From positions 1 through 29,240 of the forward strand of contig JAJRWM010000072.1 of the NCBI GenBank assembly GCA_024276815.1: a DNA stretch of 29,240 nucleotides, given 5' to 3'. The translations under genes were made by a program, and so were the position numbers. Under the pieces are notes generated by a model. That model had not been told where the DNA came from. It searched no databases and saw only the letters and a list, made by a program, of their open reading frames with translations. This document shows positions 2,051-26,984 of the stretch, in pieces. The stretch's first letter is position 1; the number at the start of each line of letters is the position of its first letter. The stretch comes from a bacterium. Lineage in GTDB: Bacteria > JACRDZ01 > JAJRWM01.

Positions 2051-2259
2051 TTAGGGGGAACTTTTTTAGACTTCGCTAAAAATCAGCTCGTCGATAGATA
2101 TAGATAAAAACCGCTCCCCCTAAAACCCCCACACAAAAACTTTAGTTGGTCTATAGCAAATATATTTGATTTGATAGTAACATGCTGTAGGTAAGCGAGC
2201 AACTCTTTGCGAGTGAGATTATAAGTGCCGAAGGCATCTATCCTCAAACCGTCGGTTTG
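2051..2259 (+). repeat. Dispersed hairpin repeat, copy R1
   Basis: This copy starts with a large stem, TTAGGGGG (2051-2058) pairing with CCCCCTAA (2116-2123), enclosing a second stem TTTTTAG/CTAAAAA (2063-2069/2076-2082). It then has the three-hairpin core: H1 GCAACTCTTTGC (2199-2210), H2 TGCCGAAGGCA (2226-2236) and H3 CAAACCGTCGGTTTG (2245-2259). The core is shared with copies at about 14,951, 20,648 (opposite strand) and 26,691. The H3 stem is perfect and differs in sequence from the other copies while staying paired. Confidence 0.75.
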
Positions 2260-2356: not shown

Positions 2357-3091
2357 CTATTCCAAAAGCTTCAAAATTGTCGACTGCTGCATATTAAACT
2401 GAGCTAACATCGCAACGCCGGAACGCTCTTTTATTTGAGTCTGGACCAGGTTCATCATGGATTCAGCGAAGTCGGCGTCTCGTATCCGGGACTCGGCGGC
2501 CATGGTGTTTTCCGCGGCGACAGCCAGGTTGTTAATCCGGCCTTCCATGGAATTAATCTGGGCGCCGATTCCCGATCTTATTGACGCCACATTTGAGCCT
2601 GCTTCTCTTGCCGAGGTAATGGCTCCGGCAGGGTCGGCGACGACGTCGATTCCGGCTGTGCCAATTGCGTCCGGGGCCAGATTGGTAGCGATTGGTTGCT
2701 CGTTAAAAGTTGTCTTGGAAGCGTCGGCGATAAATTCATTCAGCGAATCAATTTCCTGTTGAATAGCCATCCTGTCTTCTGAAGTCAGGGTCGCGTTAGC
2801 GGACTGGACCGCCAGTTCATCGATGCGGCCAACGGCATCCTGAACGCTCGCGGCTGTACCTTCCGCTGTTTGAGCCAGGGATATCTCGTCCTGGATATTG
2901 GCCAGATCTTTCAGGTAGCCGGAGATCTGCGCTCTCATTTTTTCCGAGACAACGAGGGCGGCCGGATCATCGCTGGCGTCATTTACTTTCTGGCCGGTTG
3001 TCAGTTCTTCCAGGAATTTCTTCACCTGCTTATGGGTGTTATTAAGCTGGTTAGTGATTCCCATACCGCTACTTTTGTTGATACCAACCAT
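2357..3091 (-). CDS. Flagellin, minimal form (244 aa)
   Basis: This is a flagellar filament protein exported through the flagellar type III apparatus. The N-terminal D0/D1 helices (SSGMGITNQLNN, then ELTTGQKVNDASDDPAALVVSEKMRAQ-type heptads) and the C-terminal D1/D0 helices (ESRIRDADFAESMMN, then AMLAQFNMQQSTILKLLE) match the flagellin N and C domains. Only about 60 residues separate the two, so the variable D2/D3 domain is absent and the protein is near the smallest size for a filament flagellin. It starts at ATG 3091 behind an AGGAGGTG ribosome site with ideal spacing, suggesting strong expression. A sigma-28 promoter (3130-3157) sits just upstream and a strong terminator just downstream, so it can be transcribed alone. 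It lies 63 bp after the larger flagellin. Confidence 0.95.
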   Translation of the reverse strand: MVGINKSSGMGITNQLNNTHKQVKKFLEELTTGQKVNDASDDPAALVVSEKMRAQISGYLKDLANIQDEISLAQTAEGTAASVQDAVGRIDELAVQSANATLTSEDRMAIQQEIDSLNEFIADASKTTFNEQPIATNLAPDAIGTAGIDVVADPAGAITSAREAGSNVASIRSGIGAQINSMEGRINNLAVAAENTMAAESRIRDADFAESMMNLVQTQIKERSGVAMLAQFNMQQSTILKLLE

Positions 3092-14771: not shown

Positions 14772-15091
14772 GGTGTGTTACGATTCAAACCTAAGGCTTC
14801 TCCAAGTTAAAGTTTTAGTTCTTTAATTACAGACGAAACAACATCGTCGATAAATATCGCAACGATAGATATGGGGGAAGGTGCCGGAAAGAAGCATGAT
14901 GCTTCACCCAATTCGCCTTCGCGGGCCGGTGGGCCTGTTTAATATCGCTTAGCGAGAGAACTGTTTCTCGAGTGAATACTAAAGAGCCGAAGGCAAGAAT
15001 CCTCAAACTGTAAGTTTGAAAAAGGGGTTCCCGAGGTTCTTGTTTTGCCGGATCATTTGAACGTTAAGTGCTTTAGAAAGGATACTGTGTT
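14772..15091. other. 320-bp intergenic region filled by repeat copy R2
   Basis: It separates mnmA from the ferredoxin gene. Apart from the repeat described separately it holds a GAAGCA-TGA-TGCTTC hairpin (near 14891-14905) and the ribosome site AAAGGA of the next gene. I see no obvious T-tract terminator and no firm promoter. Confidence 0.6.
14809..15048 (+). repeat. Dispersed hairpin repeat, copy R2
   Basis: The left part has TTAAAGTTTTAG and GGGGGAAGG (near 14873). The core follows: H1 GAGAA-CTGT-TTCTC (14956-14969), H2 GCCGAAGGC (14986-14994) and H3 CAAACTGTAAGTTTG (15004-15018). The right end GGGGTTCCCGAGG plus TTCTTGTTTTGC (15024-15048) matches copy R5 (26908-26932) at 23 of 25 positions. 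Relative to R1, both H1 and H3 stems have changed on both sides so that pairing is kept. Confidence 0.8.
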
Positions 15092-19847: not shown

Positions 19848-20663
19848 ATGTTAAATTTTAAGGAACAGGATTACGCGGAAGCCGGCCGGCTGTTTTGCGA
19901 GTTATTACATATTATGTCCCGGTTGCGGGGCGAGCAGGGCTGTCCCTGGGATCAAAAACAGGATCATCGTTCAATCAAGCCCTGTCTTATTGAGGAAACC
20001 TATGAGGTTGTCGAGGCGATAGAAGAGGGGAGCGCTGTCAAGCTGACGGAAGAATTGGGCGATGTTTTGCTACAGGTGGTTTTTCACGCTCAGATCGGCA
20101 AGGATGAGCAGACCTTTCAAATTACCGATGTCATAAAGACTCTGAACGAAAAGCTGGTTCGCCGTCATCCTCATGTTTTCGCTGACGTTCAGCTTGACAC
20201 GGCGGAGGCAGTCTTGGCCAACTGGGAAGCGATCAAGAAAAAGGAAAAGGGCGAGCAGCAAGACAGCTCTCTTTTACAGGGTATTCCCAAAAACATACCC
20301 GGTTTGCTCAGGGCGCACCGGATTCAGGAGAGGGTGGCCCGGGTTGGTTTTGACTGGGAGCGTATTGACGGGCTGTTCGCCAAGATTGATGAGGAACTGG
20401 AAGAGTTTAAGGCGGCTTACCGGGAGGGTGGCGAAGAGGAAATCAATGATGAACTGGGAGATTTGTTTTTTATGTTGGTCAATCTGGCCCGTTTTGTGGA
20501 AAAAGACCCGGAGAGCGCTCTGCACAGTACCATAAACAAATTTGTCAAACGATTTAATTATATCGAGCGGGCGTTGCTGGAAAAGGGCGTGGGACTGGAA
20601 GAGGCTTCACTGGAAGTAATGGAAGAACTGTGGCAAGAGGCCAAAGGCAGGCTTACAGCCTGA
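19848..20663 (+). CDS. mazG: Nucleoside triphosphate pyrophosphohydrolase MazG
   Basis: MazG hydrolyses (d)NTPs to monophosphates and pyrophosphate. The 271-residue protein has the two tandem all-alpha domains of full-length MazG. The first has CPWDQKQDHRSIKPCLIEE and EETYEVVEA...EELGDVLLQ; the second has EELEEFKAAY...NDELGDLFFM, the Mg-binding E-E-x-x-E and E/D-L-G-D motifs. ATG 19848 is used; the good AGGAGAGG lies 33 bases upstream, in front of a 12-codon TTG frame that ends just inside the mazG start. The last codons (GGC AGG CTT ACA GCC TGA) are part of repeat copy R3, so the C-terminus RLTA is repeat-encoded. Confidence 0.94.
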   Translation: MLNFKEQDYAEAGRLFCELLHIMSRLRGEQGCPWDQKQDHRSIKPCLIEETYEVVEAIEEGSAVKLTEELGDVLLQVVFHAQIGKDEQTFQITDVIKTLNEKLVRRHPHVFADVQLDTAEAVLANWEAIKKKEKGEQQDSSLLQGIPKNIPGLLRAHRIQERVARVGFDWERIDGLFAKIDEELEEFKAAYREGGEEEINDELGDLFFMLVNLARFVEKDPESALHSTINKFVKRFNYIERALLEKGVGLEEASLEVMEELWQEAKGRLTA

Positions 20664-20816
20664 AGATGCTTGCCTTCGGCACATCAAAACCGCTCGCAAG
20701 CTGTGTTGCTCTCTTGCGTATTGGTTAGATTATCGCTTTTTTCATCGCATAAAGATAGCACCTACTAAAAACTTTATCCTTGGTTTTGGTTGCACTTCGG
20801 GTTACAGGTAATTTGT
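20648..20816 (-). repeat. Dispersed hairpin repeat, copy R3 (opposite orientation)
   Basis: Read on the minus strand it has AAAGTTTTTAG (about 20776-20766), H1 GCAA-CACAGC-TTGC (20709-20696), H2 TGCCGAAGGCA (20681-20671) and H3 CAGGCTGTAAGCCTG (20662-20648). The H3 stem differs from R1 and R2 at three paired positions, all still complementary. H3 overlaps the end of mazG. The orientation is opposite to the surrounding genes, unlike R2 and R5. Confidence 0.75.
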
Positions 20817-22577: not shown

Positions 22578-22709
22578 TGCACAACAAACATTATAAAACG
22601 GATGTTAGGGCGGGTTCCAGGCTTGTGCAAAGTTTTTGCCGAAGGCAAGTTTATATTTTTTGGAGGGGGTGTGGGGGAACTCTTTTTTGGAATAAAAAGG
22701 TTCCCCCAC
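22578..22709 (+). repeat. Partial relative of the dispersed repeat, copy R4
   Basis: It contains AAAGTTTTTGCCGAAGGCAA, where H2 has a 5-bp stem TTGCC/GGCAA (22636-22648), and a strong hairpin GTGGGGGAAC (22671-22680) with GTTCCCCCAC (22700-22709). Inside that stem CTTTTT pairs with AAAAAG. The G-rich stem matches the AGGGGGAACTTTTTTAG part of R1. TGCACAA/TTGTGCA (near 22578-22629) pair across the left part. H1 and H3 are not recognisable, so this is a shortened or diverged copy. The hairpin could also act as a terminator after the glycosyltransferase gene. Confidence 0.55.
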
Positions 22710-22760
22710 ATCGTCTTACATAAGATGTTAATTTGTTCTGAAGCTACGGCGGGGTGTTAA

Positions 22761-24020: not shown

Positions 24021-26660
24021 ATGGAAGTTATAGTTTCCCACCAAAACACTGACTTCGACTCCCTGGCGAGTATGGTCGCGGCTCAGAAACTGTATCCGAA
24101 GGCGCCTATCGTTTTTTCCGGTTCCAAAGAAAAAAATGTCCGGGAGTTTCTCGATCTGCATCCCTCTTTTTTCCATGTCCGCCGCTTAAAGGAGCTTGAT
24201 CTGTCTAATCTGGAGCGGTTAATTATCGTTGACACCAGGCAGCGTGACCGGATCGGGCAGCTTTCTCATATCGTAGCTGAACGGCAAAACGTTGAACTCC
24301 ATATTTTTGACCATCATCCGGTTCATGAGAGTGATTTAAGCGGTAAAATTAATGAGATCAGGGATATTGGGGCGACGACAACCATCATGCTGGCCCACAT
24401 CAAATCCCGGAAACTTGAGATATCGCCGCAGGAAGCGACTTTGTTTGCCTTGGGAATTTATGAAGACACCGGGTGCTTGACCTATCCCAGCACCAGGCCT
24501 GAAGATGTCGAAGCGGTAGCCTACTTGTTGAAAAATGGTGCGAACCTGGACACCGTAACGAATTTCATCAACCGGGAACTGACTTCGGAGCAGTTGGCGA
24601 TTCTTAACGAATTGATGTCGTCTTCTGAAAACTATGACATAAACGGGGTCAGAGTCGTGATTGCCAAAGCTTCCTATGACAAATATGTCGCCGATTTAGC
24701 GGTCTTGACCCACAAACTCAGAGATATGGGTAACCTGGAAGTTATTTTTACGCTCGTTCAGATGCATGAACGGATTCACCTGGTCGGGCGTAGCAAGGTC
24801 GAATCAGTCGATGTTGGTTCCTTGGCCGAGTATTTTGGCGGCGGGGGCCATACCACCGCGGCCAGCGCCATGATCCGCAATTCAACCCTGGAAGAAATCG
24901 AGGAGATACTGCTTTCTCTCCTGGATAAATACATCAAACCGGTTATCAAGGCTAAAGATATCATGAGTTCTCCGGTCATAACCATAAATTACAATTCGAC
25001 GGTCGAGGAAGCCCGGCGCAAAGTCCTGAGCCATAATCACACGGGGTTTCCGGTTGTAAAAAACGATAAACTGGTTGGTTTGATAACCCATAAGGATATT
25101 TACAAAACGATCAATCATGGGCTGGGCGGGGATAAAGTTATCGGTTACATGCATCCCGACGTAACTGTGCTTAACCCGTCGGTCGGGCTGAATGAAGTCC
25201 AGAAAATAATGATTGAAAGTCATATCAAATACCTTCCGGTGGTGGACAATGACAAGCTGGTGGGAATTTTGACCTACACGGATGTTTTAAAATCGCATCA
25301 CTCCCGGAACAAGGTTCGCGTTCCGCGGAACGCGGACGCTGATTTCCGTTATCACACCAAGAATGTTACCTCTCTGCTGGAGAACCGCCTGACGCCTGAT
25401 ATTTTGCGTTTAATAAAAAAAATGGGTAAAATCGCTGATGAAATGCGTTACAACGCTTTTTTGGTCGGCGGTCTGGTTCGTGATTTATTAATCGGTGTGG
25501 ACAATCTGGATATTGATATTGTGGTCGAGGGGCTTGGCGTGCAGTTTGCCAGGGAACTGGTGAAAAAACTGGGCGGGCGTTATATTGCCCACAAGAAGTT
25601 CGCCACGGCGATTGTTGTTTTGCCCAACGGTTTTAAAATTGACATTGCCACGGCTCGTACTGAGTATTACGAGTTTCCCACGGCGTTGCCGACGGTTGAG
25701 CTGAGTTCGATCCGCTATGATTTATACCGCCGTGATTTTACCATAAACGCCTTGGCCGTCAATATCAACCCTTCAGAGTTTGGCGCTCTGGTTGACTTCT
25801 TCCAGGGGCGTCAGGATATCAAGCGCGGTATCATCAAAGTTTTGCATAACCTGAGTTTTGTCGATGATCCGACGCGTATTTTCCGGGCGGTTCGTTTTGA
25901 GAGCCGTTTTGGCTTCAAGATTGACAAGCAAACGGAGCATTTCATTGACAACGCGCTCCAGTTGGGTGTTTTGGAAAAGATCAACAATCAGCGTATTCGC
26001 GAGGAGATCATTCTTCTGTTGAGCGAAGGCGACCCTTGGGTCGGCATCGCCCGGTTGGGCGCTCTCAACGTCTTAAAGAAAATCCATCCAAAAATGAAAG
26101 CTGATTTGAAGGCTCGTCATCTTTTCGAGCAGGTGAAGGAAGTTCTCGCCTGGTTTAACCTTTTGTATCTCAAGGATAAAGTGCATAGATGGTTAATATA
26201 CTTCATGGCGCTTACCAACCGCCTGGACGCGGCGGAATTGAATGATTTTGCCCGGGAAATCAGGTTGAACAAAAAACATTTCCAGGTTTTACAGACCTTG
26301 CATGAGAAAAAAGTAATGATTCATCAGAAGCTGAACGCCCGGCAAGCCCTCAGGGATAGCGAAATATATCAGACTCTGAGTCATATTCCTCTTGAAATTT
26401 TATTGTTTATCATGAGCGATACAAAAAATGAAAACATTAAAAAGAGGATTTCAAGATATATCACTGATTTGAGAAAAGTCAGGATCAGCCTGACGGGGAG
26501 AGACTTGGCTCAAATCGGTATTCCTCAGGGGCCTCAGTACAGCGCGCTGCTTGAAACTGTGATCCTTGGTAAACTTGACGGCGAAATAAAATCAAAGGAT
26601 GATGAAATAGCTATGGTCAAAAGTTATTATGCCGGAAGAAAAAAGACTTCTATCTCGTAA
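24021..26660 (+). CDS. DHH-CBS-tRNA nucleotidyltransferase fusion (CCA-end synthesis, likely A-adding)
   Basis: This is an 879-residue multidomain protein. Residues 1-150 form a DHH phosphoesterase-like domain (SHQNTDFDSLASMVAA, VDTRQRDR, FDHHPVHESD) and about 230-300 a DHHA1 domain with GGGGHTTAASA. Residues 315-430 hold two CBS domains (AKDIMSSPVITIN, IGYMHPDVTVLNP). From about 475 it has a class II tRNA nucleotidyltransferase head with FLVGGLVRDLLIGVDNLDIDIVVEG (metal-binding DxD) and RRDFTINALAV, then the helical tRNA-binding region with DDPTRIFRAVRFE. Proteins of this architecture in Aquifex and relatives are A-adding enzymes that work with a separate CC-adding enzyme. It is the third gene of the nadD operon. 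The DHH domain's substrate is unknown. Confidence 0.9.
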   Translation: MEVIVSHQNTDFDSLASMVAAQKLYPKAPIVFSGSKEKNVREFLDLHPSFFHVRRLKELDLSNLERLIIVDTRQRDRIGQLSHIVAERQNVELHIFDHHPVHESDLSGKINEIRDIGATTTIMLAHIKSRKLEISPQEATLFALGIYEDTGCLTYPSTRPEDVEAVAYLLKNGANLDTVTNFINRELTSEQLAILNELMSSSENYDINGVRVVIAKASYDKYVADLAVLTHKLRDMGNLEVIFTLVQMHERIHLVGRSKVESVDVGSLAEYFGGGGHTTAASAMIRNSTLEEIEEILLSLLDKYIKPVIKAKDIMSSPVITINYNSTVEEARRKVLSHNHTGFPVVKNDKLVGLITHKDIYKTINHGLGGDKVIGYMHPDVTVLNPSVGLNEVQKIMIESHIKYLPVVDNDKLVGILTYTDVLKSHHSRNKVRVPRNADADFRYHTKNVTSLLENRLTPDILRLIKKMGKIADEMRYNAFLVGGLVRDLLIGVDNLDIDIVVEGLGVQFARELVKKLGGRYIAHKKFATAIVVLPNGFKIDIATARTEYYEFPTALPTVELSSIRYDLYRRDFTINALAVNINPSEFGALVDFFQGRQDIKRGIIKVLHNLSFVDDPTRIFRAVRFESRFGFKIDKQTEHFIDNALQLGVLEKINNQRIREEIILLLSEGDPWVGIARLGALNVLKKIHPKMKADLKARHLFEQVKEVLAWFNLLYLKDKVHRWLIYFMALTNRLDAAELNDFAREIRLNKKHFQVLQTLHEKKVMIHQKLNARQALRDSEIYQTLSHIPLEILLFIMSDTKNENIKKRISRYITDLRKVRISLTGRDLAQIGIPQGPQYSALLETVILGKLDGEIKSKDDEIAMVKSYYAGRKKTSIS

Positions 26661-26984
26661 AAGCACTCGGCTATGTATCAGGCATTATATAGCGAGCAAC
26701 TCTTTGTGAGCGATTCGGAGGAGTCGAAGGCAAGCATGGTAAATTCGCAGACTTGAAACTGTAAGTTTGTGTTGACAGTTTGGCGTAATTTTGATAAGTT
26801 TTACTCTCTCTGTCGGAGAATACTAGAGTGTTTAACGATCTTACCTGAGGACTCTTCCTGTTAAAGTTTTTGGGGGAAGGTTTGGAAACCACGTTTTTAC
26901 TAAAACGGGGGTTCCAAAGGTTCTTGTTTTGCTTTATATGTGTTTGTAAAACGCTTTATAATCACTAAAACGGGTTGATGGATA
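26661..26984. other. 324-bp intergenic region containing repeat copy R5
   Basis: It separates the tRNA nucleotidyltransferase gene from menG. Besides the repeat, TTGACA at 26773-26778 within GTTTGTGTTGACAGTTTGG could be a -35 box, but I found no convincing -10. No coding frame is credible. Confidence 0.55.
26691..26932 (+). repeat. Dispersed hairpin repeat, copy R5
   Basis: The core has H1 GCAA-CTCT-TTGT (26696-26707, with a G-T pair), H2 GTCGAAGGC (26723-26731, with a T-G pair) and H3 AAACT-GTA-AGTTT (26756-26768). Then come TTAAAGTTTTTGGGGGAAGG and a long hairpin in which TTTGGAA pairs with TTCCAAA and CGTTTT pairs with AAAACG (about 26881-26918). The end AGGTTCTTGTTTTGC (26918-26932) is identical to R2. 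Confidence 0.8.

Follow-up and report, generated by a model that had tools for sequence, protein, structure and literature searches.

The window, the whole 29,240-nucleotide stretch of bacterial DNA that was analysed (contig C238), carries four copies of a repeat made of small hairpins, R1 to R4. R1 is a half-element on the forward strand (2194–2259) composed of the hairpins H1, H2 and H3. Its H3, CAAACC-GTC-GGTTTG, faces the 3′ end of a flagellin gene (2357–3091, reverse strand) at a distance of 97 nt. R2 (14922–15018, forward strand) represents a sub-family marked by an extra upstream hairpin with a 4-nt loop (14922–14937, CGGGCC-GGTG-GGCCTG), and also contains a CGCTTAGCG hairpin, H1, H2 (14986–14994) and H3 (15004–15018, CAAACT-GTA-AGTTTG). 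R3, a second half-element, lies on the reverse strand (20648–20709) and abuts mazG. The R3 H3 (20648–20662, CAGGCT-GTA-AGCCTG) closes the mazG reading frame, and the TGA stop codon (20661–20663, forward strand) is formed by the last H3 bases and the first base of the linker. R4 (26653–26768, forward strand) retains the asymmetric centre CTCGTAAAAGCACTCGGCTATGTATCAGG and H1. Its H2 is the variant GTCGAAGGC, and of its two H3 words one is decayed. It is degenerate, the decayed word being an extra one inserted between the linker and H3. R4 also contains the TAA stop (26658–26660) of a DHH-CBS-PolyA gene. This gene (24021–26660) encodes a fusion protein with DHH, DHHA1, CBS and PolyA-polymerase domains and ends within R4.

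H2 at the window sites is GCCGAAGGC. The four sites, which an earlier note had picked out from the sequence alone, lie where that note placed them, with H2 and H3 as it read them and R4 in degenerate form. Compared with shuffled DNA, R1, R2 and R3 fold slightly better (z −1.7 to −1.9), while the predicted fold of R4 is no better than the shuffles (z 0.16). No Rfam covariance model matches the window sites up to E 5, which agrees with the earlier note's statement that the family was not one it recognised. The Rfam matches in the window are to microRNA models only and were dismissed as chance. By themselves, the four window sites are suggestive only, and it is the genome-wide copies that settle the existence of a family.

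A second dispersed repeat was seen in the same DNA. It consists of G-rich, terminator-like inverted repeats (TTTTTTGGAGGGGGTGTGGGGGAACTCTTTTTT ... AAAGGTTCCCCCAC) at window positions 2054–2075, 22638–22710 and 26862–26935, and elsewhere at C30:12211, C69:3754, C131:5962 and C245:2045. H3 words are often nested directly after its T-run.

A lineage-specific family of modular hairpins, as far as visible

The genome that contains the window (2.39 Mb in 246 contigs, 91% complete) holds approximately 65–80 scattered copies of this modular repeat. With at most three mismatches allowed, a 33-nt pattern matches the genome at 14 places, and its reversed control at none. A covariance model of 48 positions, built from 15 copies, has 107 matches at E ≤ 1 in the same genome. 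When the model was searched over 41 genomes, 87 matches at E ≤ 0.01 were found in the home genome, confirming the family, with further copies outside the window. The 40 other genomes gave two weak, chance-level matches, one each in two genomes. Only three of the relatives searched belong to the phylum of the home genome, and by the same model the repeat is absent from all three. An exact degenerate pattern had 0 matches in 84,980 GTDB species genomes, a set from which the home genome may have been left out, and 0 in IMG/VR. Phage and plasmid records held no similar DNA. With no pattern, phage or plasmid match and no convincing covariance match outside the home genome, the family appears to be lineage-specific, as far as is visible. 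All copy counts derive from one genome in a fragmented assembly, some of the 79 anchored sites are chance matches, and the copies are kin, so that counts are not independent events.

Anatomy and word counts were read from 208 kb around the copies. The full element is ~150–200 bp long and has two oppositely oriented ends that flank an asymmetric centre of ~75 bp. Each end is composed of one or more exchangeable H3–linker–H2 modules. Read in one direction, the first part of the full element is H3 word (CA....TAC....TG), AGGATGCTT, H2 (GCCTTCGGC) and then ACATCAAAATCGCTCGCAAAGAGTTGCTCGCTTGAGTATTACCTGATACATAGCCGAGTACTTTTACGAGGCGGAATTAAAAGT, and it continues with H2 (GCCGAAGGC or CGCGAAGCG), ATCTATCCT and an H3 word with a GTA loop. 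For the 27 clusters with at least two words, the median span is 170 bp. Tandem arrangements also occur: 52-bp units form runs of five on C137 and of three on C223, and ~127-bp units form a run of three on C15. Different H3 words are found together within single arrays.

The H3 stem is 6 bp long and draws on a vocabulary of about ten: CAGGTC, CAGGCT, CAAACT, CAAACC, CAAGCG, CAGGCC, CAAGTC, CAGGAC, CAAGCT and CAAGCC. Perfect hairpin words of the form CA....TG, with any stem, number 103 in the 208 kb, and 97 of the 103 use only the ten stems. The control counts were 4 for the sequence reversed and 22 for arms in direct repeat. The inner side of the H3 word is flanked by AGGAT, ACCAT or TTTTAA, and the outer side is variable. 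CAAGCG is mostly paired with the linker ACCAT, and words with a 4-nt loop mostly with TTTTAA.

To examine the pairing, 52 copies (47 distinct) were picked on H2 and the linker only, which avoids selecting copies by H3 pairing. In this set, the inner H3 pairs take the first four places among all column pairs by G-statistic. For three of the four, E is at most about 0.04 when tested against a null in which the same substitutions are placed anew on the tree. H3 thus truly covaries, and the compensatory changes described for H3 from the window copies are significant at the level of the genome. H2 alternates between GCC/GGC and CGC/GCG. Its best pair, in an H3-anchored set, ranks sixth with E of about 0.2, indicating that H2 covariation is partial and suggestive only. 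H3 mismatches in the H2-anchored set, which includes some non-homologous rows, are few and comprise 4 G-T versus 7 A-C. In these few cases G-T does not exceed A-C, so that tolerance of G-U on an RNA strand is not apparent, and the mismatch counts lend no support to RNA-level selection on one strand.

The earlier note took compensatory change to mean that the fold is kept and not the sequence. The covariation of H3 is compatible with this, but a vocabulary of about ten words would also permit module exchange or correction by template switching, and G-T mismatches are not in excess of A-C ones. The perfect stems may have come from mutation rather than selection, with template switching at quasi-palindromes copying one arm onto the other, together with module exchange. 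Both arms do change together, one-sided intermediates are rare and lack a wobble bias, the few stem words are partly tied to linkers, and different words coexist within one array. Homogenisation of inverted-repeat arms by template switching is documented (PMC8604942, PMC7202029). However, such a process leaves the stop adjacency, the polarity and the dispersal to 65 loci unexplained. As a full account we regard it as a real but minority possibility. It can also act jointly with the spread of REP-like elements that we favour below.

Position and polarity at gene ends

Genes were called with a home-made codon-usage ORF scorer, whose calls in the window match the genes backed by Pfam. None of the 65 clusters lies inside a gene. 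In 12 cases the H3 word follows a stop codon at exactly 0 nt, and in 7 more at a distance of 1–3 nt. An in-frame group (n = 12), which includes uvrB and mazG, has its TGA stop supplied by the H3 end and the next base. Counted by element, and considering only those for which both spacers could be measured, 11 lie within 0–3 nt of a stop compared to 0.92 expected, and a simulation that slid elements randomly in their own spacers reached a maximum of 5 in 5000 runs. The element-level count contains no distances of 4–10 nt from a stop codon. The nearest gene start is never closer than 16 nt.

Protein family models indicate where the in-frame copies begin. The MazG model TIGR00444 is complete (248/248) and stops at residue 266 of 271, where the element begins, and the UvrB model TIGR00631 is likewise complete (658/658) and stops at 388 of 392, again where the element begins. 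The model for the Thermus-type branching enzyme stops at 488 of 491. Since the family models finish where the element starts, the in-frame copies sit at natural gene ends, to which they add tails (RLTA or KSTT, for example). On C110, and on C133 at 7519, a single element connects the two stops of a convergent gene pair. At two loci, C232:819–850 (L070) and C65:4097–4130 (L076), the stop falls within a decayed H3 word and a fresh H3 follows 0 or 2 nt further on, an arrangement that suggests repeated arrival at the same gene end. Among the neighboring genes, one for a PEP-CTERM-like secreted protein (L063, C60:13100–14270) lies between two repeat copies, and a second PEP-CTERM gene ends in a repeat copy on C110.

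Between codirectional genes, elements with a retained centre are strictly oriented, the same end facing the 3′ end of the upstream gene in 12 of 12 cases. This count derives from 11 loci, as C97 holds two elements, and applies to codirectional neighbors only. Half-elements without the centre, such as R1 and R3, occur in both orientations. The mixed orientation relative to genes proposed in the earlier note therefore describes the half-elements, but not the 12:0 polarity of the centre-keeping ones.

Targeted insertion, selection for a hairpin close to the stop and deletion of the spacer up to the stop are three possible origins of the stop adjacency. The empty class of 4–10 nt makes a simple deletion gradient less likely. 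A generic TAA, TAG or TGA trinucleotide was considered as an insertion target and rejected, as the outer flanks away from gene ends lack these triplets. A placement mechanism might recognize gene ends themselves, inserting elements at stops in one orientation and taking over the stop codon, without a RAYT, integron integrase or reverse transcriptase. We put this forward as a speculative proposal that is rather doubtful.

Position and polarity also bear on the idea that the repeat is primarily a functional mRNA structure, an intercistronic or 3′-UTR RNA under selection in the transcript, with mobility incidental or ancient. Full-length copies strictly polar to transcription, adjacency to stops and the covariation of H3 would all be expected of such an RNA. 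However, G-U pairs are not in excess over A-C mismatches, half-elements stand in both orientations and the element is missing from the searched relatives, where a conserved regulatory RNA would usually be expected. We consider this account unlikely.

Candidate enzymes and insertion traces

The earlier note likened the sites to REP elements moved by RAYT transposases and proposed a search for a RAYT or Y1-type transposase, which uncovered only a remnant and one poor match. No RAYT was found in the 91%-complete assembly, an absence that is not final. The sole match to PF01797 (Y1_Tnp) above cut-off is a truncated IS200/IS605-type TnpA (L015:1255–1434; C210:1282–1434), which runs for 58 codons to a TAG stop. 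The sole match to the RAYT model NF047646 is a 153-aa protein (L106:1399–1860, on C90) that scores 16 bits against a cut-off of 80. It also matches Y1_Tnp weakly, lacks the HUH motif, having no His-hydrophobic-His, and is possibly a derived, inactive RAYT-like protein. The genome holds no integron integrase (TIGR02249) above cut-off, the best match reaching 76 bits where the cut-off is 265, and such sub-cut-off matches also occur in 14 of 14 control genomes. Nor is there a reverse transcriptase above cut-off. Target-site duplications were not found, direct flank matches being at chance level in 27 elements, and no pair of empty and filled sites was seen. The lack of target-site duplications does not speak for a DDE transposon and would fit a process of Y1 type or one based on replication. 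Neither a GTAG nor a CGTC tag adjoins the H3 words in the linkers.

These results weigh on a classical REP or REPIN family, mobilized by a RAYT (TnpA-REP) or another Y1 HUH transposase that cuts single-stranded DNA hairpins. Inverted-pair hairpin arrays, an intergenic 3′ location and the lack of target-site duplications fit the Y1 mechanism, the truncated TnpA and the 16-bit match are present, and in an assembly that is 91% complete the transposase gene may be missing. The C90 protein, however, has no HUH motif and lies far below the cut-off, and C90, the contig of this candidate gene, has no match to the repeat. The hairpins also lack an adjoining GTAG tag, a feature reported to be of crucial importance to several TnpA-REP enzymes (PMC8266576). 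A family of this kind is improbable here. Still less probable is a MITE with terminal inverted repeats recognized in trans by a DDE transposase. A multicopy, intergenic element of ~150–200 bp with inverted terminal modules resembles one, but its ends use about ten different stem words, which sets them apart from terminal repeats of specific sequence, and the flanks match only at chance, with no target-site duplication. The stop adjacency and fixed polarity also recall attC sites, but a dispersed set of attC-like recombination sites belonging to an integron-type system is very improbable, as the copies are scattered at 65 loci with no cassette array, half-elements point both ways and integron integrase is not above cut-off.

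Probable REP-like spread and comparison with known systems

With a probability of about 0.6, we favour REP/BIME-like, lineage-specific, non-autonomous palindromic elements that spread through intergenic DNA and came to lie at gene 3′ ends as stop-proximal mRNA hairpins. This reading starts from the observed dispersion, modular anatomy, H3 covariation, stop adjacency and polarity, and adds mobility and a function. As no mobilizing enzyme, no empty and filled pair and no target-site duplication was found, we infer mobility from dispersal beside unrelated genes, from nesting and from tandem arrays. Copies would have spread through intergenic DNA, probably as single-stranded DNA hairpins acted on by an enzyme, and modules may have been gained, lost and swapped at the hairpins. 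Copies would then have settled at gene 3′ ends, with H3 often directly after the stop or supplying it. In mRNA, the stop-proximal hairpins probably affect translation termination or mRNA stability, as suggested by E. coli REPs. For REPs located within 15 nt of a stop codon in that species, ribosome stalling and lower translation are reported in one source, which cites earlier work (PMC12306157).

If this reading is right, a REP-like family is added from a deep, little-sampled bacterial lineage, and such repeats would be able to lie precisely at a stop codon, or provide it, with a single polarity. The family would also test how REP-like repeats spread without a RAYT, and whether stop-proximal hairpins come from an insertion mechanism or from selection.

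Several known systems share some of these features. The attC sites of integrons are stop-adjacent and polar, and their structure is conserved more strongly than their sequence; they differ from the present family, which is dispersed, forms no array and comes with no integron integrase above cut-off. BOX elements of Streptococcus pneumoniae are modular, with sub-units in variable number, and the present repeat is likewise assembled from sub-units but is unrelated in sequence. We know of no stop-codon adjacency as a feature of BOX elements. Similar to REPINs, two inverted palindromic units are dispersed as one unit, but the present elements far exceed REPINs in length, carry several hairpins in each arm, have an asymmetric centre and lack a RAYT. 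CGTC-tagged REPs, the second REP super-family, including Rickettsia RPE-4 and RPE-6 and Neisseria dRS3, are described in PMC3733652 as palindromic, dispersed and without a dedicated transposase. The present repeats resemble them in these respects but have no CGTC tag, a stem of 6 bp rather than 8–9 bp and a composite structure of ~150–200 bp.

The closest likeness is to the REP/BIME elements of enterobacteria and pseudomonads, many of which lie downstream of genes, a sizeable share near stop codons, according to two sources (PMC3733652, PMC12306157). Both are high-copy, short intergenic palindromes that occur downstream of genes as inverted pairs, mosaics and tandem arrays. In the wide sense of REP, the present family shows many intergenic palindromic copies, dimers and arrays, located downstream of genes and often near the stop. 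Unlike GTAG-tagged REP/BIME elements, it has no GTAG tag, no RAYT that was found and an unrelated sequence. It further differs in its ten interchangeable stem words, in an H3 placed exactly at the stop or supplying it, and in its asymmetric centre and strict polarity. The likeness to REP elements seen in the earlier note thus holds, but not the mobilizing RAYT or Y1 transposase, for which there is only the remnant and the match without HUH. As neither the GTAG tag nor a RAYT was found, we file the family under dispersed intergenic palindromic repeats, outside any named family.
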